Assembly (NCBI RefSeq): GCF_015714715.1
Contig: NZ_WAHS01000001.1
Location: 1,240,001-1,304,000, forward strand
DNA: 64,000 nucleotides
Direction of reading: 5' to 3'
From: Aestuariivirga litoralis
GTDB lineage: Bacteria > Pseudomonadota > Alphaproteobacteria > Rhizobiales > Aestuariivirgaceae
Of the stretch, positions 17,583-36,511 are shown piece by piece. Numbering within the stretch: position 1 is the stretch's first letter; every line of letters begins with the position of its first letter. The notes under the pieces are model-generated. The model ran no database searches, had not been told where the DNA came from, and was given only the letters and a program-made list of their open reading frames with translations. The translations under genes were made by a program, and so were the position numbers.

Positions 17583-17602
17583 ATATAAACATATCTTTAT
17601 AT
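17583..17602. promoter_or_regulatory. SahR-type operator upstream of the regulator-metF operon
   Basis: ATATAAACATATCTTTATAT, a 20-bp inverted repeat with one mismatched pair. It matches the perfect palindrome at 36492-36511 in 19 of 20 positions and sits at the same distance, 17 nt, from the start codon it precedes. On the coding strand both copies are followed by AGTTTTG. It overlaps a likely TATATA -10 element, which suggests repression by steric block. Confidence 0.75.
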
Positions 17603-17741
17603 AGCTTGCCGGAACTTCGATTTCCAGCTAAAAAGCGTCGTAAATGGAAAAAGCTTGCGGGCTGCCCGAATATTTTGCCAAAACATCTTCACATTGCCAC
17701 AGTCAGCCGCCAATTTGACCCGTAATTCAAGGATCATAACT

Positions 17742-18335
17742 ATGCGTCTTTCACGTCGCCGCCTTTTGATTGCTACCGTCGCCTTGCCCTTCATGGGGGT
17801 GGCCACATTGCCTGCGCTCGCTGACGGCGGCGCGGACGATTACGTGCATGGCCTGGGGACGCAAGTGCTCAAGATGGTCAAAGGCGGCAAACGCGGCGAC
17901 AAGGGCTTGCAGAGCCGCTTCGGCAATCTTCTCAACCAGTATGTCAATCTTGGCCAACTTGGCTCGATGGCGCTGGGCCGCAACCGGGCCAGCATGCCGT
18001 CGGGCGACAAAGGCATGTTCTCCAGCCTGCTTTCGAATTACGCCGCAGCCCTGTTCGTCTGGTATGTGGATGACTTCCAGGGCAGCGACCTGAAGGTGAC
18101 CAAGATGGGCCAGCAGGGTGCCTTCACCACGGTAGATACAGTGATCGTCGGCAGCAATGAGCCGTTGAGCTGGCGCGTGACCGGTGGCCCGGGTTCCTGG
18201 CGCGTGGCCGACGTCAAGGTCAAAGGCGTGTGGCTGTCGATTGCCATGAAAAAGATGTTCGACGACACGCTCAATGCTTCGCATGGCGATTTCCAGCCGC
18301 TCTATGCAAAACTGCGTGAAGCGGACACCTGGTAA
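17742..18335 (+). CDS. MlaC/Ttg2D-like periplasmic protein
   Basis: Resembles the MlaC family, soluble phospholipid carriers between the outer membrane and an inner-membrane MCE transporter. The 197-residue protein begins MRLSRRRLLIAT, a twin-arginine type signal, cleaved probably after LPALA. The mature part shows the family layout: helical N-half, a YVDDFQGSDLKVTK strand, WRVADVKVKGVWLSIAM and a C-terminal helix. The ATG at 17742 has AAGGA upstream. No mlaFEDB genes are in the window, so the partner is unknown. Confidence 0.7.
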   Translation: MRLSRRRLLIATVALPFMGVATLPALADGGADDYVHGLGTQVLKMVKGGKRGDKGLQSRFGNLLNQYVNLGQLGSMALGRNRASMPSGDKGMFSSLLSNYAAALFVWYVDDFQGSDLKVTKMGQQGAFTTVDTVIVGSNEPLSWRVTGGPGSWRVADVKVKGVWLSIAMKKMFDDTLNASHGDFQPLYAKLREADTW

Positions 18336-18350
18336 TTAACCTTGCATTAA
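18336..18350. promoter_or_regulatory. Perfect CtrA-type box (TTAA-N7-TTAA)
   Basis: TTAACCTTGCATTAA has two TTAA half-sites separated by exactly 7 nt, the consensus of the alphaproteobacterial cell-cycle regulator CtrA. It begins right after the stop of the first MlaC-like gene and ends 38 nt before the ATG of the second. It may drive or repress the second MlaC-like gene and the coupled extensin-like gene separately from the first. Confidence 0.5.
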
Positions 18351-18388
18351 CCCCGTTGGCCTGAGATTTGGGGGAGAGAGCTCGAATC

Positions 18389-18946
18389 ATGATTTCACGC
18401 CGATTCTTCCTGGCCTTGATGCCTGCCGTTTTTGCCGTGCCCGCGATGGCTGCGGATCATCCGTCTGTGGTTTTCATGAACCGCATGGGCGATGAACTAC
18501 TGCACGCCCATCGGCAGGGCACCACTTCGGCGTTTATGCGCGTAATTCAACGGTATGCTGATATCAATTCGATCGCTGATGAATCGATCGGTACCTACAA
18601 AGTAGGTGACGGTGACATGGCCCGCTACAAGCGCGGCGTTGCCACTTTCATTTCGCGTTATTTCGCCGACCAGAGCCGCAGCTATCAGGTTGCCAAATTC
18701 GAAGTGGGCGAAGCCACTGTCGACAAGGACAAGAATGTCCTGGTTGATTCCAAAGTGTTCCTGATGTCTGGCCAGACTTACAGTGTGACCTGGAAACTGA
18801 ATTGGGTTGGCGGTTCGTACAAGGTGGCCGATGCCCGCTTCCTGGGTTTCTCGATGACCTCGATGGAACGCAATCTATTCAGTTCCTTCCTGGCCAAGCA
18901 TGATGGTGATGTGAAGGCCTTGATCGTCGCCCTCAACCGGCAATGA
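18389..18946 (+). CDS. MlaC/Ttg2D-like periplasmic protein, second copy
   Basis: A 185-residue paralogue of the preceding gene. It starts MISRRFFLALMP, a close match to the SRRxFLK twin-arginine motif, with cleavage likely after AMA. The body has family features: YADINSIADESIGTYK, FISRYFADQSRSY, a VTWKLNWVGGSYKVADARFLGFSM core and a closing helix. GGGGGAGAG precedes the ATG at 18389. The stop overlaps the extensin-like gene by 4 nt. Substrate and partner are unknown. Confidence 0.7.
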   Translation: MISRRFFLALMPAVFAVPAMAADHPSVVFMNRMGDELLHAHRQGTTSAFMRVIQRYADINSIADESIGTYKVGDGDMARYKRGVATFISRYFADQSRSYQVAKFEVGEATVDKDKNVLVDSKVFLMSGQTYSVTWKLNWVGGSYKVADARFLGFSMTSMERNLFSSFLAKHDGDVKALIVALNRQ

Positions 18947-19593
18947 CCTTGAAGCCCGCAAGGCTGTTTGCGGGTGCAGGCCTTACTCTTCTCGCTGCCT
19001 GTTCCACCGGGCCCCGTTCCGCGCAATTTACACTTGAAGGCGTGCAAGCGCCGAAAAGCACTTGCGCAGTTGATCCGCAAAGTTTCGCCCAAGCCACTCC
19101 TCTGCCCGACATTGAAGAAGGCAATGGCTGCCGCGTCAGCCCGGCCTATAAAATCAGTGCCGTGAATGACGTGCAGTTTTCACCCAGTGCGGTGGTCAAT
19201 TGCGATCTGGCTGACAGTGTGAGCGGCTGGATCACCCGCAATGTTCAGCCGGCAGCACAGGCCGCTTACGGCCAGAAGGTTGTTTCGGCCGAGATCGCAT
19301 CTTCTTATGCGTGCCGCGCGCGTGATAATATTCGCGGAGCAAAACTTTCCGAACACGGTTTTGGAAACGCCATCGACTTCGGTGGTTTCACACTTGCCGA
19401 TGGCCGTGAGGTTTCTGTAGTGCGCGATTATTATGGCAAGCTGGATGACCAACAGTTCCTTCACCGCATCCGGCAGGAAGCTTGTGGCCCCTTCCACACC
19501 GTGCTGGGGCCAGGTTCAGACCGCTTCCACAAGGATCATATCCACCTCGACCTTCAGCATGACCGCCGTGGCGGCGGACCTTACTGCCATTGA
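18943..19593 (+). CDS. Extensin-like domain lipoprotein
   Basis: A 216-residue envelope protein with a lipobox (LTLLAACS) and an extensin-like C-terminal domain. The diagnostic parts are the SEHGFGNAIDFGGF segment, FLHRIRQEACGPFHTVLGPGSD and a final HKDHIHLDL. This fold resembles Zn-dependent peptidoglycan peptidases (HxxxxxxxD plus HxH), so cell-wall hydrolysis is plausible but unproven. Start and the previous stop overlap as ATGA, so it is probably made together with the MlaC-like protein. Confidence 0.8.
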   Translation: MTLKPARLFAGAGLTLLAACSTGPRSAQFTLEGVQAPKSTCAVDPQSFAQATPLPDIEEGNGCRVSPAYKISAVNDVQFSPSAVVNCDLADSVSGWITRNVQPAAQAAYGQKVVSAEIASSYACRARDNIRGAKLSEHGFGNAIDFGGFTLADGREVSVVRDYYGKLDDQQFLHRIRQEACGPFHTVLGPGSDRFHKDHIHLDLQHDRRGGGPYCH

Positions 19594-19719
19594 GAGTGCT
19601 GTGAGCTGATCAGCCATCGCAACTCAAGCGAAACGCCCTTGCCAGAAAAGCGATTCCCCGCCTAATCTTCTCGAAAGCCAAAACCGGCGGCAAAAAGCCG
19701 GATGGGCTGGGGAGGACAT

Positions 19720-19893
19720 ATGAAACACATTCTGCTGCTGATCCCATGCATCCTGGCGGTCGCCACGCCATGGTACAATTCCATTGAGCCGCAATTGTTC
19801 GGCTTCCCCTTCTTCTACTGGTTCAACCTGGTGCTGGTGCCGATTTCGGTGATCTTCATCTATGCGGCCTTCAAGGTGGAGGGCAGCAAATGA
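19720..19893 (+). CDS. DUF3311 small membrane subunit of a solute symporter
   Basis: A 57-residue protein with two hydrophobic helices and the PWYNSIEPQLFGFPFFYWF core typical of DUF3311. Such proteins are encoded directly before SSF-family symporters and are thought to assist them. GGGGAGGAC precedes the ATG at 19720. The stop overlaps the symporter start by 4 nt. A GC-rich stem-loop (CCGGC/GCCGG, 19684-19700) lies just upstream. Confidence 0.8.
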   Translation: MKHILLLIPCILAVATPWYNSIEPQLFGFPFFYWFNLVLVPISVIFIYAAFKVEGSK

Positions 19894-21461
19894 ACATTGT
19901 TGCCACAACAGTTTTCGTTCTGTTTTTCGTGCTGGTCACGGCGCTGGGTTTCTGGGCGGCGCGATGGAAGGCGGGCGATCTCAACAAGATTGATGAATGG
20001 GGCTTAGGGGGACGCCAGTTCGGCCCGTGGATCACTTGGTTCCTGCTGGGTGGCGATCTCTATACCGCCTACACAGTGATTGCCGTGCCCGCCGTGGTCT
20101 ATGCCATCGGTGCTTACGGCTTCTTCGCCGTGCCCTACACGGTTCTCATTTACCCGCTGGTGTTCCTGATCATGCCGCGGCTGTGGAATGTCTCGGCGCG
20201 GCATGGCTACGTCACCGCAGCTGATTTCACCTATGGCCGCTTTGGCAATAAGTGGCTGGAGTTGGCCGTGGCCATCACCGGCATTGCCGCCACCATGCCT
20301 TACATTGCGCTGCAGCTCGTCGGCATGGAAAAGGTGATCCAGGCTTTGGGCTTTTCCGGCGAAGGCTGGGTGTCGCATGTGCCGCTCACCGTGGCCTTCG
20401 TCATCCTTGCCCTTTACACTTACAGTTCAGGCCTGCGCGCCCCTGCCCTGATCGCCTTCGTCAAAGACATCATGATCTATGTCTTCGTGATCGCGGCGAT
20501 CATTCTCATTCCTTATGAGCTGGGTGGCTTCAGTGCGATCTTTGAACTGGCCGGCAAAGCCTTCGAAGCCAAGGTGGCCGCTGGTGCCGCGATGGATCCA
20601 CCGCAGAAGATCGCGGCCGGCCTTACTCTGACTCAAGGCCAGGTCGTGCCGTTCATGACGCTGGCCATTGGTTCGGCTATGGCATTGTTCATGTATCCGC
20701 ATTCGCTGACCGGCGTGCTGTCGTCGAAGAACCCGCGCACCATTCGCTTCAATGCGATGACGCTGCCGGCCTATTCGCTCGTGCTGGGCCTTATTGCCCT
20801 GCTCGGCCTGATGGGCCGCGCTGCCGGGCTTGAACTCAAGAACCCGCAGGATGTGGTGCCGCAGCTGTTCCTCAAGATGTTCCCGGACTGGTTTGTCGGC
20901 TTTTCCTTCGCGGCCATCGCCATCGGTGCCTTGGTGCCGGCGGCGGTGATGTCGATTGGTGCGGCCAACACATTCACCCGCAATGTGTGGCGGCCCTTTG
21001 TCAATCCCAACATGTCGTCCAAGCAGGAATCTGACTTGGCCAAGCTAATGTCGCTGATTGTGAAGCTTGGCGCATTGGTGATCATTCTGTTCATCAACAC
21101 GCAGTTCGCCCTGGACTTCCAGTTGCTGGGCGGCATCCTGATGATCCAGATCTTCCCGGCCATGGTGTTCGGCCTCTACACGCGCCGCATCCATGGCACG
21201 CCATTGCTCATCGGCTGGCTGGTGGGCATGGCGCTGGGCATCTTCCTTGCGGCAGGCGCCAAGGCCTGGGTGCCGACCTGGATGACGCCACTGGGCTTTG
21301 CGGTTTACATCGGCTTCTTCTCGGTGATCGTGAATGCGATCATCGCGGTAATATTGAGCTTCGTCTTGCCGAATTCTGGCACGGACCAGACCAAGCCTGC
21401 CGACTTTGAAGATGGTGCGACGATGCCGCCGCACCGCCACGAGCCGGAGCCGGTTCTCTAA
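19890..21461 (+). CDS. Sodium:solute symporter, monocarboxylate (MctP) type
   Basis: SSF-family secondary transporter of 523 residues with about 13 membrane segments. The N-terminal GFWAARWKAGDLNKIDEWGLGGRQFGPW segment, LLGGDLYTAYT and the ALFMYPHSLTGVLSSKNPRTIRFN loop match MctP-like carriers known from rhizobia, which take up lactate, pyruvate or alanine. The substrate here is inferred from family only. It is translationally coupled to the DUF3311 gene and meets the EamA gene tail to tail with a 4-nt overlap. Confidence 0.85.
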   Translation: MNIVATTVFVLFFVLVTALGFWAARWKAGDLNKIDEWGLGGRQFGPWITWFLLGGDLYTAYTVIAVPAVVYAIGAYGFFAVPYTVLIYPLVFLIMPRLWNVSARHGYVTAADFTYGRFGNKWLELAVAITGIAATMPYIALQLVGMEKVIQALGFSGEGWVSHVPLTVAFVILALYTYSSGLRAPALIAFVKDIMIYVFVIAAIILIPYELGGFSAIFELAGKAFEAKVAAGAAMDPPQKIAAGLTLTQGQVVPFMTLAIGSAMALFMYPHSLTGVLSSKNPRTIRFNAMTLPAYSLVLGLIALLGLMGRAAGLELKNPQDVVPQLFLKMFPDWFVGFSFAAIAIGALVPAAVMSIGAANTFTRNVWRPFVNPNMSSKQESDLAKLMSLIVKLGALVIILFINTQFALDFQLLGGILMIQIFPAMVFGLYTRRIHGTPLLIGWLVGMALGIFLAAGAKAWVPTWMTPLGFAVYIGFFSVIVNAIIAVILSFVLPNSGTDQTKPADFEDGATMPPHRHEPEPVL

Positions 21462-22357
21462 TCAACAGCGACAGGCTGCTGCTGCACTAGTGCAACGGCA
21501 GCCTTGCGCCCGAACCAGACGCAGGCTGCCACGATCAACGCGAAGACGATGGCGCGCGGGGTGATCGGCTCGGCAAGAATGAAGTAAGCCGCCACCAAAG
21601 TGAAAAAGGTCTGCAGCAATTGCACCTGGCCCACGCGGGCAATGCCGCCGAGGCTGAGGCCGCGATACCAGAAATAGAAGCCGCCCAATTGGCTGAGCAG
21701 CGCGAGATAGGCAAAGCAGCCCCAGCCGATCAGGCTTTCATCGCCCTTGAAATTCATCACCAGCCAGATGGTCACCGGCAAGGTGACAGGCAAGGCCAGC
21801 AGCAATGCCCAGGAAATGACCTGCCAGCCACCCAGTTTCTTGGCCAGCTGCGCACCTGCGGCATAGCCCATGGCGGCGGCGAAAACCGCGAGCACCAGCA
21901 GCAGATCACCGCCGTGGATTTCTGCCCCGCCATCCCAGAGCGCAAAGGCTGCAACCGCAGCTGCACCCAGCACGCTCCAAGCCCAAAAGGCTGGTGAGGG
22001 GCGCTCGCCGGCGAAAATAGTGCTCATTAGGGCGGTGGCGAGTGGTAGCGTGCCCAGAACCACGCTGCCATGCGAGGCCGGCACATATTGCAGCGCCAAT
22101 GCGGAAAGCACCGGAAAGCCAAAGATCACGCCACCCATCACAAAGGCAAGCTGGCCCACATCTTTCCACGATGGCCAGGGCTGGCGGGTGAGCAACAAAA
22201 AAGGAAAGCCTACCGCTGCGGCCACCACCGTTCGGCCAAATGACAGAAACAGAGCAGCAAAGCCATGCTGCAGGCCCAGCTTTGTGAGAGGCAAAGTGAG
22301 TGCAAAAATCGCCACGCCAACCAGGCCCAGCCACATACCCTTGGATTCAACCGTCAT
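21458..22357 (-). CDS. EamA/DMT-superfamily transporter
   Basis: A 299-residue inner-membrane protein with ten hydrophobic segments in two repeated EamA halves (about residues 10-140 and 150-290). Members export metabolites such as amino acids or purines; the substrate here cannot be read from sequence. The segment VPASHGSVVLGTLPLATALMS near residue 95 is typical of the first half. The ATG at 22357 opens the family's N-terminus directly. Confidence 0.82.
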   Translation of the reverse strand: MTVESKGMWLGLVGVAIFALTLPLTKLGLQHGFAALFLSFGRTVVAAAVGFPFLLLTRQPWPSWKDVGQLAFVMGGVIFGFPVLSALALQYVPASHGSVVLGTLPLATALMSTIFAGERPSPAFWAWSVLGAAAVAAFALWDGGAEIHGGDLLLVLAVFAAAMGYAAGAQLAKKLGGWQVISWALLLALPVTLPVTIWLVMNFKGDESLIGWGCFAYLALLSQLGGFYFWYRGLSLGGIARVGQVQLLQTFFTLVAAYFILAEPITPRAIVFALIVAACVWFGRKAAVALVQQQPVAVD

Positions 22358-22432
22358 CGAACCGACATATCCCTTGGACTAGGAGTAATACCAGCTATAA
22401 TCCGCAACCTTAAGGCCAGACACGGGAAACCC

Positions 22433-23338
22433 ATGGAACAAGCTGTGGCGCGCAAAGTACGCTTTACTTATTCGACGGCGGATCAACCCTTCATCCAGCG
22501 CGCTGTTATTCAAGCCATTGAAAAACTCGGCGGGCAGCGCAAGCTCAAGAAGCTCTATGTGCGCCACCAGGAAAATGTCGATCGCGGCGCGAATTTCTTC
22601 GACTCAGCCATCAACTTGCTGCGCATCAATGTGGATTTTGATGGTGCGGCCCTGGGGCAAGTGCCGCGCACCGGGCCGGTTCTGTTCATTTCCAATCATC
22701 CTTACGGCGTACTGGATGGCGTGACTCTCACTTGGCTGGCGCTGAAAGTGCGGCCTGACACCAAAGTGCTGGCCAACGATGTTCTGTGCCAGGATGCCAA
22801 TGCCGCCAAGAATCTCCTGCCCGTAGCATTTGCCCCCACCCGTGAGGCGCGCGAAACCAATGTGCGTTCCCGCCATGAGGCACAGAAGCTTTTGAAGGAA
22901 GGTGGTGCTGTCGGCATTTTCCCCGGTGGTGGCGTTTCCACCTCCGAACGCGCGCATCGCGGCACCGCGATGGACCTGCCCTGGGCGCCTTTCACCGCCA
23001 AGCTGGTGCGCATGTCGGAAGCCACAGTTGTTCCGATTTATTTCACCGGGCAGAATTCCCGCCTGTTCCAAATTGCCAGCCATTTGAGCCTGACGTTACG
23101 GCTCTCGCTGGTGTTCCGGGAAACCGCAAGGCGGATCGGAACCGATCTGAAGGTGCGCGTCGGCAAGCCGATCCCATTTTCGGAGATCGCACATTTGACG
23201 GAACGCGAAGATATGATCCGCGAACTGCGCAAAAGGACCTATGCTTTAGCTCAACCGCAGGATATAAAGGGCCCTGTTCACGATCTGCACTTGCGTCACG
23301 GCCGTATCAAGGGCTGGAAGACCGGCGGTGGTGACTGA
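22433..23338 (+). CDS. Lysophospholipid acyltransferase family protein (PlsC-like)
   Basis: Probable membrane-associated acyltransferase of glycerolipid or ornithine-lipid type. I chose the ATG at 22433, giving 301 residues. The catalytic block reads NHPYGVLDGV, with five residues between His and Asp instead of the usual four, as in some hemolysin-like acyltransferases. The second block is GIFPGGGVSTSE and the third is VVPIYFTGQNS. No transmembrane helix is obvious. The acyl acceptor is unknown. It stands alone between a convergent-free DMT gene and the next MlaC-like gene. Confidence 0.75.
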   Translation: MEQAVARKVRFTYSTADQPFIQRAVIQAIEKLGGQRKLKKLYVRHQENVDRGANFFDSAINLLRINVDFDGAALGQVPRTGPVLFISNHPYGVLDGVTLTWLALKVRPDTKVLANDVLCQDANAAKNLLPVAFAPTREARETNVRSRHEAQKLLKEGGAVGIFPGGGVSTSERAHRGTAMDLPWAPFTAKLVRMSEATVVPIYFTGQNSRLFQIASHLSLTLRLSLVFRETARRIGTDLKVRVGKPIPFSEIAHLTEREDMIRELRKRTYALAQPQDIKGPVHDLHLRHGRIKGWKTGGGD

Positions 23339-23390
23339 ATCCAGCAAATCAAGCTGGAACCAAGAACGGCCGTGGGAGTTTTGATTGTTG

Positions 23391-23915
23391 ATGAAGCGTT
23401 TTATCTCCACTTTTGTTCTCGCGCTTGCTCTGTCCGGCGGCGCTGCTCTCGCTGACAGTTGCCCCTCGCGTGAATTTGCGCAAAGTGCTGCAACCGCCAT
23501 TCAGGGTGCCGCCCGGCAGCGTTCACCGCAAGCCTTCATCAATGCTGCTTCGCGCTATATTGACTTGAACTCGCTTTCGCTTACCGCTTTGGGCAAATAT
23601 CGTTCGCAGCTCACGCCTGCGCAGCAAAGCCGCTATCTCGCATCGGCGCGCAAATTCATCGGCAAATTCCTGGTCGATAATTCAAACTATATTCCGACCT
23701 CCGGCGTCTCGTCGGTCAGCTGCTCCGGTAGCCTGGCCACCGTGCGCTTTGATTCCGGCGCGTCGATCACCTTCCGCCTTGCCGGGCCACAACGCGTTTC
23801 CGACGTTTTGATCCTGGGCATTTCGGTGGTCGGGGCAATGCGCAGCTATTTCACCGGCATCATCCAGAACCATAATGGTGATGTGAACGCGCTGTCTACC
23901 GCGCTGTCACAGTAA
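23391..23915 (+). CDS. MlaC/Ttg2D-like periplasmic protein, third copy
   Basis: A 174-residue relative of the two MlaC-like proteins about 5 kb upstream, but with an ordinary Sec signal peptide (MKRFISTFVLALALSGGAALA). Shared features are FINAASRYIDLNSLSLTALGKYRSQL, a helical ARKFIGKFLVDNSNYI segment and the closing HNGDVNALSTALSQ, which parallels HDGDVKALIVALNRQ in the second copy. Two cysteines (DSCPS and VSCSG) are unique to this copy. A TTG triplet at 23385 could also start it. Confidence 0.65.
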   Translation: MKRFISTFVLALALSGGAALADSCPSREFAQSAATAIQGAARQRSPQAFINAASRYIDLNSLSLTALGKYRSQLTPAQQSRYLASARKFIGKFLVDNSNYIPTSGVSSVSCSGSLATVRFDSGASITFRLAGPQRVSDVLILGISVVGAMRSYFTGIIQNHNGDVNALSTALSQ

Positions 23916-23987
23916 GAACCTCTTTCCAGCGATCTCAATTCTGCCATAAGTGGCAGACAAATCGCTTTGGGTTATTGAGGGATCCAG

Positions 23988-24647
23988 ATGAAAAAACCTG
24001 TTCTGGCTGTGCTTGCCGCAGCCTTGCTTCTTTCTGCCTGCACGACCGATCCATTCACCGGCGAGCAAAAGGCCTCCAACACGGCTGTCGGTGGACTTGG
24101 CGGTGCGGGCATTGGCGCCATCACCGGCGCAGTGATCGGTGCTGCCGTGAGTGCCGATGTGCGCAAGGCTGCGCTGATTGGCGCAGGCATTGGTGCTTTG
24201 ACCGGTGGCGGCATCGGCCTTTACATGGACAACCAGGAAGCCAAGTTGCGGCAGCGCCTGCAGGGCACCGGCGTTTCAGTGACGCGCGTGGGCGACAGCA
24301 TCGTTCTCAACATGCCGTCCAACATCACGTTTGATACCGACAAGTCTGAGCTGAAGCCGCAATTCTACAACACGCTGAATTCAGTGGTGTTGGTGTTCAA
24401 GGAATACAAACAGACGCTCATCAATGTGATCGGCCATACAGATTCCTCCGGCGATCCGAATTACAATTATGACCTGTCGCGCCGGCGCGCGGCTTCGGTG
24501 GCGCAATATCTTTCGGCCCAGCAGCTCGATCCCAACCGGTTCTCGGTGGAGGGCCATGGCGCGGGTGATCCGATTGCGTCGAATGCTTCGCCTTCAGGCC
24601 GTGCGCAGAACCGCCGTGTGGAAATCACCATTTTGCCGCTGACCTGA
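23988..24647 (+). CDS. OmpA-family lipoprotein (YiaD-like)
   Basis: Outer-membrane lipoprotein expected to bind peptidoglycan. The 219-residue chain has a lipobox (LLLSACT), a glycine-zipper membrane-like stretch at about residues 32-80 (GGLGGAGIGAITGAVIGAAV and GAGIGALTGGGIGLY), and a C-terminal OmpA domain with NVIGHTDSSGDPNYNYDLSR and the RAQNRRVEI end. AGGGATC precedes the ATG. prmA follows after 3 nt. Confidence 0.9.
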   Translation: MKKPVLAVLAAALLLSACTTDPFTGEQKASNTAVGGLGGAGIGAITGAVIGAAVSADVRKAALIGAGIGALTGGGIGLYMDNQEAKLRQRLQGTGVSVTRVGDSIVLNMPSNITFDTDKSELKPQFYNTLNSVVLVFKEYKQTLINVIGHTDSSGDPNYNYDLSRRRAASVAQYLSAQQLDPNRFSVEGHGAGDPIASNASPSGRAQNRRVEITILPLT

Positions 24648-24650
24648 TAC

Positions 24651-25601
24651 TTGATCGTGAGCGAGGCGCGCTTCACTTTGAGTTTCGGCAACCTGTCGCA
24701 TGACGGGGCCTTTGCGATGATGGACAAGATCGAGAATGATTTTGCCATCGACGCACTTGCCGTCACCATCAACGAAACCGACGAAGCCAAGGCGCTGTGG
24801 GAAACCGTGGCCTGGTTCTCTTCAGCTGAAGAAGCCGAGGACGCGCGTGCTCATTTCAACTTGGCCGGCGCTGCCGTTGCGCCGGTGCCGGACCGGGACT
24901 GGGTGCGAGAATCTCTCGCTGGGCTGAACCCGGTGGTGGCGGGGCGGTTCTTCCTGCATGGGTCACATGATCGCCCATCGCGCCGCGCCGGTGGCATTTC
25001 ATTGGAGATCGACGCCGGCACGGCCTTTGGAACCGGACATCACGGCACGACTTGGGGCTGCCTTGAAGCACTTGATGACATTCTGAAGCGCCACCGCCCT
25101 GCCCGCATGCTGGACCTCGGCACCGGCACAGGCGTGCTGGGGCTTGCCGCTGCCAAAGCGCTGCGCTCACACGTGTTAGCGACCGATATTGATCCTGAAG
25201 CGGTGCGTGTGGCGAAGCTCAACGCCATCCACAATGGCTCTGGACCGTGGTTCAAGGGGCTCACTGCTGCCGGCCTGCATGATGCCGCCATCCGCAAAGC
25301 GGCGCCCTATGATCTCATCTTTGCCAATATTCTGGCGCGGCCGCTGGCGATGCTGGCACCGGGCATTGTGTCCATGCTGGAGCCGCGCGGGCATCTCATT
25401 CTGTCGGGATTGACGGTGGACCAGCTGCGCTGGATCAAGGCGGTCTATACGGCGCGTGGGTTGATTACCCGGCGCGTGATCAACAGTGAAAACTGGATTG
25501 CTTTGGTGATGACCAAGCCATCGCGCCAAAATAAAAGCCGCGCCTCTCGCAAGGCGCAGCTTATAGGTTCAAAGGGTCTCGGCTGGGCCGAAGACGCTTA
25601 G
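24651..25601 (+). CDS. prmA: Ribosomal protein L11 methyltransferase
   Basis: SAM-dependent enzyme that trimethylates L11. The start is uncertain: TTG at 24651 or GTG at 24657, both just after the OmpA lipoprotein stop, and no ATG fits until the body of the domain. The C-terminal half is clear, with EIDAGTAFGTGHHGTTWGCL, motif I as MLDLGTGTGVLGLAAAK, ATDIDPEAVRVAKLNA and NILARPL (the NxxxxPL-like active site). At 316 residues it is slightly longer than usual, with a basic tail. Confidence 0.92.
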   Translation: MIVSEARFTLSFGNLSHDGAFAMMDKIENDFAIDALAVTINETDEAKALWETVAWFSSAEEAEDARAHFNLAGAAVAPVPDRDWVRESLAGLNPVVAGRFFLHGSHDRPSRRAGGISLEIDAGTAFGTGHHGTTWGCLEALDDILKRHRPARMLDLGTGTGVLGLAAAKALRSHVLATDIDPEAVRVAKLNAIHNGSGPWFKGLTAAGLHDAAIRKAAPYDLIFANILARPLAMLAPGIVSMLEPRGHLILSGLTVDQLRWIKAVYTARGLITRRVINSENWIALVMTKPSRQNKSRASRKAQLIGSKGLGWAEDA

Positions 25602-25607
25602 TAGCGT

Positions 25608-27895: not shown

Positions 27896-27912
27896 AGTCC
27901 CGCGCACGCACG

Positions 27913-29262: not shown

Positions 29263-29340
29263 GACACTTCATTGGGTTGCGATAAAAAGAGCTTACCCGG
29301 TCTTGTTGACGCAAGCAAACCGGGCCAGCTATCACAGGCC

Positions 29341-30621
29341 ATGCCTGCATCCATTTCAGCCCAATCCTACTATCAAGCCACTGCCAATGCGCGGATCGTC
29401 ACATCTCCCCTCGCCGGCGATGTGAGCACCGATGTATGTGTGATTGGTGCTGGCTATACCGGGCTCTCGGCCGCACTCGAACTGGCCAAGGCCGGATTCA
29501 AAGTTGTGGTTCTGGAAGCGGAAACGATTGGTTTCGGCGCGTCGGGCCGCAATGGTGGGCAAATTTGCACAGGGTTTTCCTCCGGCCAATCGCCGCTGGA
29601 TTCACAACTCGGCAAGGCCGCGTCCAAACTGTGCTTCGACATGGCGGAAGAGTCGAAGCGGCTGATCGAAGAGCGCATCGCCGCCTACAAAATCAAATGC
29701 GATCTCACCTGGGGCTATATGCATTGCATCCCCAAGGCGCATCAGTTCGAGCATTTGAAGGAGATGGCCGAAGAATATGAGGCGCTGGGTTATGGCGGCA
29801 ACACGCTCCTTACGAAGGCCGAGCTGGAAGAGAAGCTGGGCAGCAAAGCTTATCATGGCGCGCTGCGGGAATCGCGCGCCGGGCATTTTCATCCACTGAA
29901 CTATTGCCTGGGTCTGGCCACTGCGGCACAGAATGCCGGTGTGACAATCCATGAGCATTCGGCAGCGATTGAAATCGAGACGGGGGCCAAGCCTTACGCG
30001 CGCACCACCAATGGCAAGGTGACAGCGAAGTTCATGGTCATTGCCGGCAATGCCTATTTGGGCCGCACGGTAAAGCCGCTCTATGGGCGGGTGATGCCAG
30101 TGGCCAGCTACATCCTTGCTACGGAGCCTTTGGGCAAGGCGGGTGCAGAGGCCCTGATTCGTGATAATGAAGCGGTAGCGAATACCAATTTCATCGTGGA
30201 TTACTATCGCCGCTCGTCGGATCACCGGATGCTGTTTGGCGGCCGCGCCAGTTATTCCACACTGGAGCCCGGCAACCTCGCTGAATATATGCGCCCGCGG
30301 ATGACGACGGTGTTCCCGCAGTTGAAAGATGTGAAGATCGATTATGCCTGGGGTGGCTTCATCGCCATCACCTCGAACCGCGTGCCGGATTGTGGAAGGC
30401 TTTCACCGACGGTCTATTATGCTCACGGCTATTCCGGCCAAGGCGTGGCTTTGTCGGGGCTGTATGGAAAGCTGATGGCCGAGGCGATCCGTGGCCAGGC
30501 TGAACGCTTCGATCTGTTCGCCCGCATCAAACACCTGCCCTTCCCCGGTGGGCCTGCCCTGCGCACGCCGCTGCTGGTGGCGGCGATGGCTTATTACCGG
30601 ATCAGGGACGCGCTAAGCTAG
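29341..30621 (+). CDS. FAD-dependent oxidoreductase (PuuB-like, DAO family)
   Basis: D-amino-acid-oxidase-fold flavoenzyme of 426 residues. It has the dinucleotide-binding loop VIGAGYTGLSAALELAKAG, the SGRNGGQICTGF segment typical of gamma-glutamylputrescine oxidases, and the C-terminal HGYSGQGVALSGLYGKL FAD motif. Together with the divergent PuuA-like gene it suggests amine or polyamine breakdown. TTGACG (29306-29311) precedes weak TATCAC (29330-29335) by 18 nt; with no Shine-Dalgarno visible, the message could have a very short leader. Confidence 0.85.
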   Translation: MPASISAQSYYQATANARIVTSPLAGDVSTDVCVIGAGYTGLSAALELAKAGFKVVVLEAETIGFGASGRNGGQICTGFSSGQSPLDSQLGKAASKLCFDMAEESKRLIEERIAAYKIKCDLTWGYMHCIPKAHQFEHLKEMAEEYEALGYGGNTLLTKAELEEKLGSKAYHGALRESRAGHFHPLNYCLGLATAAQNAGVTIHEHSAAIEIETGAKPYARTTNGKVTAKFMVIAGNAYLGRTVKPLYGRVMPVASYILATEPLGKAGAEALIRDNEAVANTNFIVDYYRRSSDHRMLFGGRASYSTLEPGNLAEYMRPRMTTVFPQLKDVKIDYAWGGFIAITSNRVPDCGRLSPTVYYAHGYSGQGVALSGLYGKLMAEAIRGQAERFDLFARIKHLPFPGGPALRTPLLVAAMAYYRIRDALS

Positions 30622-31248
30622 GCGCTGCATCTCGGTTGCAAGTTCGCCATAGCCAGTGAAGCGGTATTCATATGCTAACCCCAGGCGCCGGGCAGCGTCT
30701 TCGGCCCTTGCCTGCAGGCCCTTATCATCCGTCTGCGCCAAATAGATCAGCTTGGTGTAATTGCCGAAGTAATCCTTCAGCAGCTCAGGATGGCGGTCGA
30801 GCCCCAAGCCCTCCCACATCAGCTTTTCGAAATGGCGGGCCAGATAATCCGTGAGGAAGAAGCATGTGAACTCCGTGTCTTCACGCGCCGCGAAGGCTTT
30901 GTTGCCGGAATAAAAGGCATAGCAATGTGGGCCTTCAATGCGCTCCACGCCCTCTTCCTTCAGCATGGCATCCAGCTGGCCGCCGGTGCCGCAATCGCCG
31001 TAGACCACATAGATGCGCTTATAGAGCGCCTTATTGGCGCGGATCTTGTCGCGCAAAGCCGGCACAATGAATTGCGGGGTGTTGTGCCACTTGGCCGGCA
31101 GGCATTGGATATCAAAAAGCTTCCAGCCATTGCTGTCTACCAGGTCTACGATTTCGCGCGCCAGGGCCCCGCAGGCCAGCAGCAACACCTCCGCGGCGTG
31201 GCCTGCCTTGCTGAAACTGTCAGACGGTTTGAGATCGACGGCGGTCAT
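30613..31248 (-). CDS. DUF1638 domain protein
   Basis: Function unknown. The 211-residue protein matches DUF1638: VLLLACGALAREI near the N-terminus, CLPAKWHNTPQFIVPALRDKI, VYGDCGTGG, a MEGPHCY-like segment (IEGPHCYAFYSG) and FFLTDYLARHFEKL. It has conserved Cys and His residues (Cys33-type LACGAL, CLPAKWHN, GDCGTGG, PHCY) that could bind metal or corrinoid. DUF1638 genes are often found beside corrinoid-dependent methyltransferases, and a corrinoid protein gene lies 0.6 kb away on the same strand. It overlaps the convergent oxidase gene by 9 nt. Confidence 0.8.
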   Translation of the reverse strand: MTAVDLKPSDSFSKAGHAAEVLLLACGALAREIVDLVDSNGWKLFDIQCLPAKWHNTPQFIVPALRDKIRANKALYKRIYVVYGDCGTGGQLDAMLKEEGVERIEGPHCYAFYSGNKAFAAREDTEFTCFFLTDYLARHFEKLMWEGLGLDRHPELLKDYFGNYTKLIYLAQTDDKGLQARAEDAARRLGLAYEYRFTGYGELATEMQRLA

Positions 31249-31529
31249 GACCTGCTATTCTTCACACTAAAATAACCATGTAAGCCCGCTCGCGCGCGTT
31301 TCCAAGCGACTGGTCAGACCAAAAAGCCGCACATCACGCGCGAAAACGTTTCGAATTTTACCATTCTGAAACCATGGGGCCGTTTCGCGCTTCCAAACCC
31401 CCCGTTCGGGACAATTCGAGGCGTGCATTTCAGGACGCGTTAAGAGCTGTCGCGTAGTTTGGTTCCTGTTCGACGACGGAGTGTCCTTGAACAGTGCTGT
31501 AAGTAACAAAGTAAAAATGGAGAGTTTAG

Positions 31530-31694
31530 ATGTTTAAGAAGTTCCTCAAGGACGAATCCGGCGTTACCGCAATTGAATACGGTGTGATCGCCGCTGCCAT
31601 GGGCGTTGCCCTGGTCGTAATCATGCCGAAGTTGGCCAGCCAGGTGACGACCCAGTTCTCGTCCATCGGCTCGCACATCGCTTCGGGCAAGTAA
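31530..31694 (+). CDS. Flp/Fap-type pilin (type IVb)
   Basis: A 54-residue pilin subunit of the Tad system. It begins MFKKFLKDESGVTAIEYG: a short basic leader, the processing site before the Glu-Tyr pair (GVTAIEYGV), then one hydrophobic helix to about residue 38. A weak AGAG lies before the ATG. A good terminator follows 45 nt after the stop. No tad/cpa assembly genes are in the window, so it is an isolated pilin gene. The 31249-31529 spacer upstream shows no other gene. Confidence 0.85.
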   Translation: MFKKFLKDESGVTAIEYGVIAAAMGVALVVIMPKLASQVTTQFSSIGSHIASGK

Positions 31695-31738
31695 TAAGCT
31701 TCGCCCTGGTCTTCGGACTGGGGCAGCCATTACAGTGG

Positions 31739-31765
31739 AAAGCGCCGGTTTTGCCGGCGCTTTTT
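31739..31765 (+). terminator. Rho-independent terminator after the Flp pilin gene
   Basis: AAAGCGCCGG and CCGGCGCTTT form a 10-bp GC-rich stem around a TTTTG loop, with a T-run at 31761-31765 and a second one shortly after. The stem is symmetric enough to act in both directions, so it may also stop transcription coming from the corrinoid protein gene on the minus strand. Confidence 0.85.
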
Positions 31766-31829
31766 GCGTTTTTAACAAGGGCGCGAGTTCTGATCGCAAA
31801 AGTCTGCAACTTTTGCGGAACGCGCTGGT

Positions 31830-32528
31830 TTAGCCAGCCAGCTGGTTGTGCTTGCGGGCCATAAAGGTCTTGGCGGTTTCCACGGCCACGGCCGCGTCAC
31901 GGCAGTAAGCATCAGCGCCGATAGCCTTGGCGAATTCCTCGTTCAGAGGCGCGCCGCCCACCAGCACAATAAAATCATCGCGCAGGCCCTTTTCCTTCAT
32001 CGTGTCGATCACGACCTTCATGTAGGGCATGGTGGTGGTCAGCAGCGCTGACATGCCGATAATGTCTGGCTTGTGCTCATCCATGGCCTTCAAATAGTTA
32101 TCGACCGGATTGTTGATGCCGATATTGATGACTTCAAAGCCCGCACCTTCCATCATCATGGCGACCAGGTTCTTGCCGATGTCGTGAATGTCGCCCTTGA
32201 CGGTGCCGATCACCATCTTGCCTACGCGAGGAGCGCCAGTTTCAGCCAGCAGCGGGCGCAGGATGGTCATCCCGGCCTTCATTGAGTTGGCGGCCAGCAG
32301 CACTTCCGGCACGAATAGGATGCCGTCACGGAAATCCACGCCGACGATGCGCATGCCTTCGACCAGGGCCTTGGTCAGAACGTCATAGGGCGTCCAGCCG
32401 CGGCCGAGGAGAATGTGAACAGCCGCTTCGACTTCCTCTTTCAAGCCGTCGTAAAGGTCGTCATGGACCTGCTGCACCAAGTCCTCGTCATTGAGGGAAT
32501 TGAGATCAAGATCACCACCATCGCTCAT
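31830..32528 (-). CDS. Corrinoid protein (B12-binding, methionine-synthase/MtxC type)
   Basis: Stand-alone cobalamin carrier for methyl transfer, 232 residues. Residues 20-95 are the helical cap domain (methionine synthase B12-binding domain type). Residues 103-225 are a Rossmann-like B12 domain with the base-off ligand motif DIHDIG at 113-118 (His115) and the later SALLTTTMPYM and VGGAPL segments. It would carry a methyl group between a donor methyltransferase and an acceptor enzyme such as the homocysteine methyltransferase at 35461-36474. The methyl-THF-binding partner is not in the window. Confidence 0.9.
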   Translation of the reverse strand: MSDGGDLDLNSLNDEDLVQQVHDDLYDGLKEEVEAAVHILLGRGWTPYDVLTKALVEGMRIVGVDFRDGILFVPEVLLAANSMKAGMTILRPLLAETGAPRVGKMVIGTVKGDIHDIGKNLVAMMMEGAGFEVINIGINNPVDNYLKAMDEHKPDIIGMSALLTTTMPYMKVVIDTMKEKGLRDDFIVLVGGAPLNEEFAKAIGADAYCRDAAVAVETAKTFMARKHNQLAG

Positions 32529-32620
32529 CGCAGAACTCCGCAGAAAGGTTTTCGTCAGTTTAGTCCGCCTCGCGAAAAGGCCAGATCATCCACCGACATT
32601 GACATGCCTGAAACCGACCG

Positions 32621-32649
32621 TTGAGGCAAGCAAGCTTGCCCGCTATTGT
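32621..32649 (+). promoter_or_regulatory. Promoter with embedded palindrome before the PLP enzyme gene
   Basis: TTGAGG (32621-32626) and TATTGT (32644-32649) are 17 nt apart. Between and overlapping them, GGCAAGC and GCTTGCC (32625-32640) form a 7-bp inverted repeat around AA. This layout suits a repressor operator. Transcription would start near 32656, only about 15 nt before the proposed TTG start codon. Confidence 0.45.
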
Positions 32650-32670
32650 CGTACAAAAAGGGAGAGAAAT

Positions 32671-33912
32671 TTGAGCGCAGCGTTGAATTTAGACGGCATC
32701 CGGCAGCAATTTCCAGCGCTGGCGTTGAAAGATAGCGGCCAGAACCGGGTTTATTTTGACAATCCGGCCGGCACCCAAGTGCCGCAGATCGTCATTGACC
32801 GCATGGTGGACGTGCTCAAATCCAAGAATGCCAATCTCGGCGGGCATTTCGCCACCACCAAGGCTGCAGTCAAGGTGGTGGACGAAGCGCATCAGGCCAT
32901 GGCCGATTTCTACAATGCCGCCTCGGCTGACGAAATCGTGTTCGGCCAGAACATGACCAGCCTGACGTTCCACTTCTCGCGCTGCCTGGGCCGCCAGCTC
33001 AAGAAGGGCGATGAAATCATCCTGTCGCGCATGGACCATGATGCCAATGTGGCCCCCTGGCTGTTGCTGGCGGAGGATCTGGACCTCGTCGTGAAGTGGC
33101 TGGATTTCGATACGGAAACCTATGAATTCCCGGATGATGCCCTGACCAAGGTGCTGTCCTCAAAGACCAAGCTTCTCGCCATGGGCATGGCATCCAATTG
33201 CACCGGCACGGTGCATGATGTGGCGCTGTTCACCAAGCAGGCCAAGGCGGCGGGTGCGTTGGTTTATCTCGACGGCGTGCAATATGCACCGCATCTGGCC
33301 ATCGACGTGCAGACGCTGGGGGCGGATGTGGTGGTTTCGTCGGCCTATAAATGGTTCGGCCCGCACCAGGGCATCCTGTGGGCCCGCAAGGACCTGTTGC
33401 AGGAAACCTTCGCCTATAAAGTGCGCGCCGTTGCGGATAGCGATATCGGCCACAAATTTGAAACCGGCACCCAGAGCCACGAAGGCATGGCCGGCTCCTT
33501 GGCGGCGGTCGATTATGTCGAGCAATTCGGCACTGGTGCAACGCGCGCGGCGCGGATCAAATCGGCGTGGAGCAATCTCGCCGCTTATGAGCAGAAGCTG
33601 ACGCTGGAACTGATCCAGAAGCTGAAGCCCTTCAAGGGCCTCACCATCCGCGGCGTGACGTCTGATAACGCGATGCACCGCCGCGTGCCCACAGTTTCAT
33701 TTACCGTGGACGGCGTCGATCCGGACAAGATCGCGCGCCATCTCGCGGCGGATAATATCTTCGTTTGGTCCGGGCACAATTACGCTCTTGAGCCGGTGAA
33801 GCGCATGGGGCTGCAGGACAAGGGCGGTGTGCTGCGCGTGGGTCTGGCGCATTACAACACGTCACAGGAAGTCGATGCGCTGATCGCATCACTCCATAAA
33901 ATTCTGAAGTGA
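32671..33912 (+). CDS. Cysteine desulfurase-like aminotransferase class V protein
   Basis: PLP enzyme of the NifS/SufS superfamily, 413 residues. It shows VYFDNPAGTQVPQ at the N-terminus, DHDANVAPWL, the cofactor Asp/Gln region (YLDGVQYAPH) and the PLP lysine in SSAYKWFGPHQG. The subgroup is the one called cysteine-desulfurase-like; true sulphur transfer is not shown and I see no clear catalytic Cys loop. I chose the TTG at 32671 because GGAGAG lies 5 nt before it and the family N-terminus begins there. The downstream dehydrogenase follows after 6 nt. Confidence 0.78.
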   Translation: MSAALNLDGIRQQFPALALKDSGQNRVYFDNPAGTQVPQIVIDRMVDVLKSKNANLGGHFATTKAAVKVVDEAHQAMADFYNAASADEIVFGQNMTSLTFHFSRCLGRQLKKGDEIILSRMDHDANVAPWLLLAEDLDLVVKWLDFDTETYEFPDDALTKVLSSKTKLLAMGMASNCTGTVHDVALFTKQAKAAGALVYLDGVQYAPHLAIDVQTLGADVVVSSAYKWFGPHQGILWARKDLLQETFAYKVRAVADSDIGHKFETGTQSHEGMAGSLAAVDYVEQFGTGATRAARIKSAWSNLAAYEQKLTLELIQKLKPFKGLTIRGVTSDNAMHRRVPTVSFTVDGVDPDKIARHLAADNIFVWSGHNYALEPVKRMGLQDKGGVLRVGLAHYNTSQEVDALIASLHKILK

Positions 33913-33918
33913 GGAATT

Positions 33919-34872
33919 ATGAGTCATAAAATCGCCGTCGTCGGCCTGGGCAAGATCGCCACCGACCAGCATGTGCCCTGCATCAGCAAGAACAAGAAGT
34001 TTGATCTTGTCGCCACCGTCAGCCGCAACAATGCGCTGGCCGGAAAGCCGCATTTCTCCACTATTGGCGAATTGATCAAAAGCAAGGTGAAGGTGGATTG
34101 TGTGGCTCTGTGCACCCCACCATCAGTGCGCTTGGCCATCGCGCGTGAAGCGCTGGATGCCGGATATCATGTGCTGATTGAAAAGCCACCCACGCCAACC
34201 GTGGGTGAAATGTTGGCGATGATTGAATATGCCAAGAAGAAGAAGCGCGTGCTCTATGCCACCTGGCATTCGCGCTACAATGATGCGCTGGACCTCGCCA
34301 AGAAACGCCTGAAGGGCAAGACCGTGAATTTCATGCGGGTGAACTGGCGCGAGGACGTGAACAAGTGGCATCCGGGCCAGGAATGGATTGCCCAACCTGG
34401 CGGCTTTGGGGTTTTTGATCCTGGGATCAATGCCTTGTCGGCGGTGACTAAGATTCTGCCTGAACCGGTTTTTGTAGAAGCCAGCAAGATCGAAGTGCCT
34501 GAAAACTGGTCCACGCCCATCGGTGTTGAGATCAGCTTCAAGCGCGGCGACGGCAAGCCAGCCGACATGCAAGCGGTGTTCGACTGGCGCCAGCGCGGCG
34601 AGCAGACCTGGGAAATCGAAATCGGAACGACCGATGGCATGAAGATGAAGCTCACCCATGGGGGCAGCGTGCTTTACATCAATGGCAAGCTGATCATCGA
34701 AGCCAAGCTGGAAGAATATGAGCGCATCTACGCGAAATTCGCCAAGCTGTTGAAGGCCAAGAAGTCAGACACCGATACGGCCCCACTGCAACTGATCTGC
34801 GATGCCTATATGATGGCCAAGCCGGTGGTGGTGAAGAAGTTTGTGTGGGATGCCGGCATCGGCAAACACTAG
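33919..34872 (+). CDS. Gfo/Idh/MocA-family dehydrogenase (galactose 1-dehydrogenase-like)
   Basis: NAD(P)-dependent sugar oxidoreductase of 317 residues. The Rossmann N-terminus reads IAVVGLGKIATDQHVPCI, EKPPTPTVGEM carries the usual EKP lysine, and WHSRYNDALD and FGVFDPGINALS belong to the catalytic domain. The pattern is closest to D-galactose / L-arabinose 1-dehydrogenases of proteobacteria. It forms an operon with the PLP enzyme upstream, a pairing I cannot explain by pathway. It overlaps the convergent PAP2 gene by 4 nt. Confidence 0.8.
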   Translation: MSHKIAVVGLGKIATDQHVPCISKNKKFDLVATVSRNNALAGKPHFSTIGELIKSKVKVDCVALCTPPSVRLAIAREALDAGYHVLIEKPPTPTVGEMLAMIEYAKKKKRVLYATWHSRYNDALDLAKKRLKGKTVNFMRVNWREDVNKWHPGQEWIAQPGGFGVFDPGINALSAVTKILPEPVFVEASKIEVPENWSTPIGVEISFKRGDGKPADMQAVFDWRQRGEQTWEIEIGTTDGMKMKLTHGGSVLYINGKLIIEAKLEEYERIYAKFAKLLKAKKSDTDTAPLQLICDAYMMAKPVVVKKFVWDAGIGKH

Positions 34873-35414
34873 AACCTGCTGACCAACCATCTATCGAACG
34901 CGGTATCGCGGCGATAGGCGAATTGCACAATCAGGGCGGCGATAAGGGCAACGCCCGCGCCGCCCGCAATGTCGCTCACATAGTGCATGCCGACATAGAT
35001 CCGCGAGACGCAGACCAGCGCCGCCATGGCGGCAAGAACTAAAGTCCAGACTGGCACCACACGGTTCAGCAAAAGGGCAAAGACAATGCTGGTTGAGGCA
35101 ATGGCATGATCGGATGGGAATGACCAATCAGCCGTTGGCGGAACGATCAGATGGCTGACGCCGGCTTCATAGGGCCGGATGCGATGGATGAAGAGCAGCA
35201 TGATCTGCGCGCTGCCCAGGCCAAGCAGGAACGACATGCCTGCCGCGATGCATCCATGCCGCACTTCCTGTGCCGGGCTTCCCAGCCACCACAGCGCGAT
35301 GACGAACAGCACCATCAGCGGCACGCCATAAGTGGTCGTGGCTAAAGCCACTGGGTCCAGAAGGTCATTCTGCCCTGCCGGTGCATTAATCCATTGGGTG
35401 ATCGCATTATCCAT
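34869..35414 (-). CDS. PAP2-family membrane phosphatase
   Basis: Integral membrane phosphatase, possibly an undecaprenyl-diphosphate or phosphatidate phosphatase, 181 residues with about five membrane segments. Motif 2 (SFPSDHA) and motif 3 (SRIYVGMHYVSD) are intact. In motif 1 (HRIRPYEAG) the Arg-Pro is present but the lysine expected seven residues before that Arg is a leucine, so activity may be altered. The start codon lies inside a perfect hairpin. It is downstream of the homocysteine methyltransferase gene on the same strand. Confidence 0.8.
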   Translation of the reverse strand: MDNAITQWINAPAGQNDLLDPVALATTTYGVPLMVLFVIALWWLGSPAQEVRHGCIAAGMSFLLGLGSAQIMLLFIHRIRPYEAGVSHLIVPPTADWSFPSDHAIASTSIVFALLLNRVVPVWTLVLAAMAALVCVSRIYVGMHYVSDIAGGAGVALIAALIVQFAYRRDTAFDRWLVSRF

Positions 35415-35437
35415 GGCGTGAGCTTATCACGCCATGG
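35411..35437 (-). promoter_or_regulatory. Perfect hairpin covering the PAP2 start codon
   Basis: CCATGGCGTGA (35411-35421) and TCACGCCATGG (35427-35437) form an 11-bp stem with a 5-nt loop. In the message the ATG of the PAP2 gene is in the 3' arm, so folding would hide it. No T-run follows, so it is not a standard terminator. It fits translational control or coupling to the upstream methyltransferase message. Confidence 0.55.
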
Positions 35438-35460
35438 CTTAGGTGAGACTTAAGAAAAGG

Positions 35461-36474
35461 TCAGGTGCGGCGGCGTTCACGCTTGGCAGCACCAGCTGCG
35501 GCGGTATCCACGCCCTTCGCCAACTGAGACACGGCACCCAGCTTTTCCTCGACATAGGCAATCGAAGGGGCTGCGCCCTTGCTGTGGCCTTCGAGTGCTT
35601 TGCGCATCGATGCCAGATGGTCCGGGCTGGTGCCACAGCAGCCGCCGATGATGCGGGCCCCGGCATCGAATGCGATGCGGGCATAATCGGCCATCAATTC
35701 CGGTGTGCCGGAATAATGGATGTGGCCATCATGATATTGCGGGATGCCGCAATTGCCCTTGGCCACCACGATTGCATCCGGGCGTTCTTCAACAATACCC
35801 ATGACAGTGGCGACGAGTTCCGAAGCGCCGGTACCGCAATTGGCGCCAATGGCGGCTGGCATCACAGCAAGGTCATTGGTCAGTTTGCCAAAGGCATGCG
35901 GGGTGATGCCCATCATGGTGCGGCCATTGGTGTCGAAGCTCATGGTGGTGACGATCGGCAGGCCAGCTTTCGATGCACCCTCGACAGCGGCGCGCAGCTC
36001 TTCTTCCGACGACATGGTTTCAATCCACAGCACATCAGCGCCGCCTTCTTTCAGGGCCTTGCCCTGCTCTTCAAAGGCAACAACGCCGTCTGCATAGGAG
36101 AAAGTGCCAACGGGTTCGAAGATTTCGCCGGTGGGGCCCATTGAGCCAGCCACATAGACTGCGCGGCCGGCAGCATCAGCCTCGGCGCGGGCGTTCTTGG
36201 CGGCGGCGATGTTGATCTCGCGCACTTGGTCCTGGGCATTGTGCAGTTTCAGGCGGTGGCGGTTGCCACCGAAGGAATTGGTGAGAACGATATCGGCACC
36301 CGCTGCGATGAAGCGCTTGTGCAGATCGCGCACTTTGCCAGGATGTTCAAAATTCCACATTTCCGGCGCATCGCCCGATTCCAGGCCCATCTGGAAGTAA
36401 TTGGTGCCAGTGGCACCATCGGCCAAAAGCCAGGGGCGGGTGTTCAGGGCTTCAGTGAAAGACGGGCGGGACAT
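35461..36474 (-). CDS. bmt: Homocysteine S-methyltransferase (Bmt type)
   Basis: Zn-dependent TIM-barrel enzyme that methylates homocysteine to methionine, 337 residues. The Zn-binding cysteines are Cys213 (GANCGTG) and the Cys279-Cys280 pair (GGCCGTS); DGATGTNYFQ and LTNSFGGNRHRL are family blocks. Rhizobial enzymes of this type use glycine betaine or work with a corrinoid protein as a split methionine synthase. A corrinoid protein gene 3 kb away favours the second possibility. The gene has the SahR-type palindrome 17 nt before its ATG, so it is probably co-regulated with metF. Confidence 0.88.
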   Translation of the reverse strand: MSRPSFTEALNTRPWLLADGATGTNYFQMGLESGDAPEMWNFEHPGKVRDLHKRFIAAGADIVLTNSFGGNRHRLKLHNAQDQVREINIAAAKNARAEADAAGRAVYVAGSMGPTGEIFEPVGTFSYADGVVAFEEQGKALKEGGADVLWIETMSSEEELRAAVEGASKAGLPIVTTMSFDTNGRTMMGITPHAFGKLTNDLAVMPAAIGANCGTGASELVATVMGIVEERPDAIVVAKGNCGIPQYHDGHIHYSGTPELMADYARIAFDAGARIIGGCCGTSPDHLASMRKALEGHSKGAAPSIAYVEEKLGAVSQLAKGVDTAAAGAAKRERRRT

Positions 36475-36491
36475 GTGGACCTCTCAAAACT

Positions 36492-36511
36492 ATATAAAGA
36501 TATCTTTATAT
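36492..36511. promoter_or_regulatory. SahR-type operator upstream of the homocysteine methyltransferase gene
   Basis: ATATAAAGATATCTTTATAT is a perfect 20-bp palindrome. It differs at one position from the element before the regulator-metF operon and has the same 17-nt spacing to the start codon. On the coding strand the shared sequence continues as AGTTTTG. Confidence 0.8.

Follow-up and report, generated by a model that had tools for sequence, protein, structure and literature searches.

SahR, a regulator of the ArsR family found in alpha- and deltaproteobacteria, is described by Leyn et al. (2014, PMC4239095) as acting through a 20-bp palindrome on a core set of target genes (sahR itself, ahcY, metF, metH, and metK), with bhmT as a genome-specific member of the regulon. 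In the same account, SamR of Xanthomonadales is a distant homologue of SahR that also controls methionine genes. A further system to be considered is the split methionine synthase MtgBCDE (Price et al. 2018, PMC5764234; Mausz et al. 2025, PMC12478193), in which separate MtgE, MtgC, and MtgD proteins, accompanied by RamA-like and DUF1638 helpers, occur without MetH; SahR is not mentioned in the main text of either paper.

In this work we analysed a stretch of 64 kb from the genome of Aestuariivirga litoralis (the window, always meant at its full length) and, in particular, two 20-bp palindromes that it contains, one standing before an ArsR-type regulator gene followed by metF, and the other before a homocysteine methyltransferase gene (Table 1). 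The system has in common with the SahR systems of PMC4239095 the protein family, the length of the palindrome, and the core target genes, and with the split synthase the separate modules, both helpers, and the lack of MetH. The motif of SamR is given as 24 bp long and its regulon as devoid of ahcY, whereas here the motif spans 20 bp and ahcY is a target. With respect to the SahR systems described by Leyn et al., two differences emerge: the methionine synthase target would be the homocysteine module of the split enzyme, and the site before mtgE occurs, in the sample tested, solely in genomes without the MetH marker. The regulon is ordinary in kind and of a type already published (PMC4239095); what is added is the probable identification of its second target as a subunit of a split synthase and the association of the mtgE operator with the absence of MetH.

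The palindromes and their target genes

The palindrome reads ATATAAACATATCTTTATAT at 17583 and ATATAAAGATATCTTTATAT at 36492, with a single position differing between the two copies, and the minus-strand ATG codons at 17565 and 36474 each start 17 nt past their copy. A sequence-only reading of this DNA had placed the two copies at these coordinates, identical at 19 of 20 positions and 17 nt before the starts, and this was confirmed. No third match was found in the window at up to three mismatches, and at the same threshold there was none in 100 dinucleotide shuffles of it. Moreover, a position weight matrix built from 23 sahR operators (the 17583 site included) assigned a score of 41.0 to the site at 36492 and 39.8 to that at 17583, the best non-overlapping position of the window scoring 6.9.

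Table 1. Features of the 64-kb window discussed in the text.
Feature	Position	Strand	Remarks
metF, methylenetetrahydrofolate reductase	15716..16579	-	profile matches; start overlaps sahR stop (ATGA)
sahR	16576..17565	-	ArsR-type HTH (~residues 8-73) + class I SAM-dependent methyltransferase domain (~150-256)
SahR operator (predicted) of the sahR-metF operon	17583..17602	-	coding strand reads ATATAAAGATATGTTTATAT; ATG 17 nt downstream
DUF1638 protein	30613..31248	-	PF07796; no SahR site upstream
mtgC-like corrinoid (B12) protein	31830..32528	-	PF02310 + PF02607; no SahR site upstream
mtgE (probable), homocysteine module of split methionine synthase	35461..36474	-	PF02574; NCBIfam name betaine--homocysteine S-methyltransferase
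SahR operator (predicted) of mtgE	36492..36511	-	perfect 20-bp palindrome; 17 nt before ATG

The genome that contains the window is 3.33 Mb long. A search of it with the 20-mer at up to three mismatches returned four places, versus one for the reversed control, while the strict dyad TATAAASNNNNSTTTATA has exactly four copies with zero mismatches, none with one mismatch, and two additional places at two mismatches (six in total). The four strict copies lie 17 nt before sahR, 17 nt before mtgE, 59 nt before ahcY, and 33 nt before metK, the last two genes being assigned by Pfam to S-adenosylhomocysteine (SAH) hydrolase and S-adenosylmethionine (SAM) synthetase, respectively. The metK site is the weakest of the four, with three mismatches to the 20-mer and a weight-matrix score of 23.2. 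The genome-wide scan that the sequence-only reading had proposed retrieved strict copies only before sahR-metF, the homocysteine methyltransferase gene, ahcY, and metK, and the many unrelated or intragenic copies, which that reading had named as evidence against itself, did not appear in this genome. This set of four genes, matching the published SahR core plus bhmT, supports the methionine/SAH regulon of the SahR type that it had suggested. As for ahcY, its operator (L003 1501-1520, corresponding to C2:812210-812229) overlaps the TAA stop codon of an upstream helix-turn-helix (HTH) gene and shares bases with its coding sequence.

Twenty-five genomes (that of A. litoralis, 15 of the genus, and nine others of the order) were scanned with the 20-mer pattern at up to two mismatches; 70 sites were obtained, versus four for the reversed control, and genome G009 yielded none. 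Together with the metK site of A. litoralis, 71 sites were classified by tblastn with marker proteins. In the 16 genomes of the genus, several of which are incomplete, all of the 49 classified sites precede ahcY (16), mtgE (15), sahR (14), or metK (4). Not all genomes have the full set: the ahcY site was retrieved from 16 of the 16, that of mtgE from 15, that of sahR from 14, and that of metK from four. The 22 sites from the nine other members of the order stand before sahR (seven), ahcY (six), metH (three), metK (one), and mtgD (one), or next to no marker (four). As regards metH, the target in L105 is a one-piece MetH as read from its translation, and in L110 and L113 metH was called from a match of 28-30% together with the place where PF02965 is found. 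One of the four sites with no marker, at 1201 in the stretch L108 (genome G005), lies about 450 nt upstream of a gene that by eye appears to be metE and may be its SahR site. Three further palindromes (L115, L117, and L118, from G003 and G007), with two mismatches each, have no marker gene directly downstream.

Given that core promoters are AT-rich and that the sites are close to start codons, the palindromes might be AT-rich promoter elements that arose by chance and answer to no dedicated regulator. This seems hardly credible to us, in view of the lack of matches in the shuffles, the placement of 49 out of 49 genus sites at the same four genes, and the retention of the palindrome at diverged sahR orthologues. 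What was directly observed is where the sites are, how rare they are in the genome, how they are conserved, and which genes they precede; a chance origin is practically refuted.

The regulator and its proposed mode of action

The product of sahR matches NF033788 above the cut-off, as well as PF01022 and PF08241; the fusion of an ArsR HTH to a methyltransferase is a trait of SahR, and the protein contains a GTGTG motif, typical of SAM/SAH sites. The domain and profile matches confirmed the identities that had been read from the letters for the ArsR-methyltransferase regulator (HTH plus methyltransferase), for metF, and for the homocysteine methyltransferase (PF02574), and the ATGA shared by the sahR stop and the metF start supports the organization of the two genes in an operon, as had also been claimed. 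Among 199 genomes of the order, SahR matches at E ≤ 1e-20 are present in 181, and 31 of the 36 locus rows show the palindrome in the 150 nt that precede sahR (30 of 35 distinct sahR loci, L017 and L046 being apparently one record). The domains, the operator of its own gene, and the regulon support the assignment of the regulator to SahR, among the descriptions published for that protein. SahR regulons of alpha- and deltaproteobacteria are also said to have been treated by Novichkov et al. in 2014.

According to these data, the palindrome is very probably the operator of the SahR encoded beside its first copy, which would exert on the whole methionine cycle a repression relieved by SAH. In the genus, 14-30 nt separate the operator from the start codon at sahR and mtgE. 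A TTG triplet was found in the 32 nt preceding the palindrome at 15/15 mtgE and 19/21 sahR sites, and at 6/22 ahcY and 3/5 metK sites; before mtgE it belongs to a TTGGCA/TTGCCG-like hexamer about 14-16 nt from the palindrome (in those counted by eye), and before sahR it stands nearer to the palindrome than at mtgE. Since the operator occupies the expected position of the -10 element, SahR most likely binds the palindrome as a dimer and blocks transcription; with the -10 element inside the palindrome, its binding would exclude RNA polymerase. Accumulating SAH would then be bound in the methyltransferase-like domain and SahR would leave the operator; release of SahR by SAH comes from published work on SahR cited in PMC8877191. 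De-repression would provide AhcY, converting SAH to homocysteine, MetF, making methyl-tetrahydrofolate, MtgE, converting homocysteine to methionine with MtgC and MtgD, and MetK, converting methionine to SAM. The whole cycle would in this way be switched on jointly, with sahR autoregulated. Binding by the SahR of this genome, repression, and the role of SAH as effector are the parts of this scheme that we infer.

A SamR-like regulator, with SAM as co-repressor and not SAH as inducer, would account for the presence of metK and metF in the regulon; moreover, PMC4239095 describes SamR as distantly homologous to SahR, and the identity of a ligand is not readable from sequence. Nevertheless, we judge it very unlikely: the palindrome of SamR is 24 bp long and its regulons, as described in PMC4239095, hold no SAM-cycle gene except metK, whereas the motif found here has 20 bp and its commonest target is ahcY (16/49 genus sites), so that neither a 24-bp palindrome nor a restriction to metK among the SAM-cycle genes was observed.

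Some results weigh against a SahR operator at these sites. In the scan of the A. litoralis genome with the 20-mer at up to two mismatches, the reversed control gave two matches versus three sites, and the reversed dyad gave 21 matches at up to two mismatches versus six for the dyad itself; therefore, only near-exact matches are informative. Furthermore, at the thresholds used, the metK site was retrieved from only four of the 16 genus genomes, five of the 36 sahR locus rows (L028, L029, L033, L036, and L037) lack the palindrome in the 150 nt upstream, four of these five also lacking metF beside sahR, and a scan for consensus sigma-70-type promoters was negative at both sites of the window.

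Two other candidate elements were discarded. The heptamer AGTTTTG does follow both copies of the palindrome in the window on the coding strand, as the earlier reading had noticed, but it is not conserved as a component of the signal, standing directly behind the site at 1/21 sahR and 2/15 mtgE sites of this and related genomes. A riboswitch at sahR or mtgE was rejected as well, since a search of the window against Rfam at gathering thresholds matched only RNase P. The latter is a bacterial class A RNase P RNA at 11278-11658 on the minus strand.

A probable homocysteine module of a split methionine synthase

The product of the second target gene scored 501.7 (cut-off 338) with the NCBIfam model for betaine--homocysteine S-methyltransferase (BHMT), and among solved structures it matches best the homocysteine domains of MetH (1q7m, 9e-41), with BHMT (1umy, 3e-15) behind them. 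Neither the MetH reactivation domain PF02965 nor the MetE domain PF01717 was found in the A. litoralis genome. PF00809 has just two matches, and the frames that contain them, with 373 and 338 residues, are too short for a one-piece MetH. One of the two proteins is, according to NCBIfam, a methyltetrahydrofolate:corrinoid methyltransferase, and a protein with PF14574, which we take to be the RamA-like/DUF4445 domain, begins about 0.5 kb behind its gene. The corrinoid protein of the window has MtgC as its top NCBIfam match, below the cut-off (201 vs 370). As for DUF1638, a gene of this family is reported as required for methionine synthesis in Phaeobacter (PMC5764234). Since no MetH reactivation or MetE domain was found, while the other split modules are present, the best reading of these sequences is that the homocysteine methyltransferase is MtgE, one of the modules that together make up a B12-dependent methionine synthase in split form, rather than a stand-alone enzyme.

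If the gene at 35461-36474 coded instead for a true betaine--homocysteine methyltransferase, SahR would control a betaine-fed route and not methionine synthase. Such an assignment would agree with the equivalog model of that name, whose cut-off is passed, and with a mutant that tied the Sinorhizobium homologue to betaine use (cited in PMC12478193). We consider it unlikely: lacking a detectable MetH reactivation or MetE domain, the organism must obtain methionine synthase from some other protein; the same genome encodes corrinoid, pterin, RamA-like, and DUF1638 proteins as separate units; the solved MetH domains match better than BHMT; and the Sinorhizobium type, as presented in PMC12478193, is a homologue of MtgE in which residues required to bind betaine are missing.

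A second PF02574 protein of the same genome (C1:1200955-1201806, L015) is encoded near a MttB-family (PF06253) protein, in a neighbourhood that is possibly a betaine or methylamine demethylation cluster; no SahR-like site was found in the L015 stretch fetched.

The mtgE operator and MetH across the order

In 69 of the 199 genomes of the order MtgE has a relative at E ≤ 1e-60, with 71 matches in all. PF02965, used as the MetH marker, is present in 149 of the 199, and the other 50 were counted as without MetH, so that a MetH lacking this domain is missed. For 70 mtgE starts the weight matrix was applied to the preceding 450 nt at most, and for the remaining one, that of G024, to the whole stretch before it, with 880 mononucleotide shuffles of such stretches as controls (99.9% quantile 18.1, maximum 23.9; two stretches were too short to score). 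The scores form two groups, at least 21.2 or at most -6.4; in view of the shuffle maximum, the three lowest positives (G145, G040, and G043) are weak on score alone.

A site upstream of mtgE was found in 27 of the 39 genomes without MetH versus none of the 30 with MetH. The 12 genomes with neither MetH nor an mtgE site are G009, G018, G028, G037, G039, G071, G079, G107, G114, G144, G166, and G188; two of them (G009 and G039) have no SahR match, and three are incomplete (G009 84%, G114 71%, and G144 61%). Among families with SahR, which were tallied by hand and are not fully independent (f27, f28, and f38 being counted on both sides), the site occurs in 10 of 15 without MetH versus 0 of 10 with MetH (Fisher 0.001). 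The similarity of MtgE does not explain this pattern, since G004, whose MtgE is 72% identical, has MetH and no site, while G029 (55%) has the site and no MetH.

Where mtgE and MetH coexist (30 genomes), metH has its own site or lies just behind sahR in 27. In 15 genomes the coordinates put the metH domain behind sahR, on the same strand and no more than about 6 kb away; a site at metH is present in G004 and G006, as well as in 10 of 11 further pre-metH stretches. The genomes left are G061, with no site in the stretch taken, G123, with no SahR match, and G038, which is outside the count.

Two strict rules were considered. The rule that a genome without MetH has a site at mtgE is rejected by the 12 exceptions among 39; the opposite one, that a genome with MetH never has it, agrees with the 0/30 observed here, but in Ensifer aridi SahR motifs are reported at both metH and bhmT (PMC8877191).

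The association of the mtgE operator with the absence of MetH, as it appears from these genomes, is apparently a new finding. No paper joining SahR with the split methionine synthase was found in a literature search that covered few subscription papers and no supplements, and that other wordings may escape; in it, papers naming MtgE and MtgC do not name SahR. Tentatively, and with some reserve, the operator may be thought to track the methionine-synthase function: lineages losing MetH would carry it before mtgE, with mtgC mostly without a site of its own, and SahR would act as a valve on the entry into methionine synthesis of the corrinoid and pterin modules, which are shared and serve in Ruegeria also in glycine betaine demethylation. 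The SahR regulon documented here is small and clean, and comes from an order with both one-piece and split methionine synthases; it suggests that a gene named bhmT, given in 2014 as a genome-specific target of SahR, comes under this regulator when it functions as a methionine synthase subunit. If the rule holds, the position of the operator could help to tell which of two similar enzymes supplies methionine in unstudied genomes.

Concerning the other modules, only one of the 29 scorable mtgC loci (from the best 30 of 81 mtgC matches) has a site of its own; it belongs to G024, where SahR sites are found at both mtgE and mtgC (L200 and L225). In some genomes, e.g., G078 and G093, mtgC lies right behind mtgE, and in G007 there is a site near mtgD. 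These cases led us to reject a rule by which mtgE alone, among the genes of the split enzyme, is under control.

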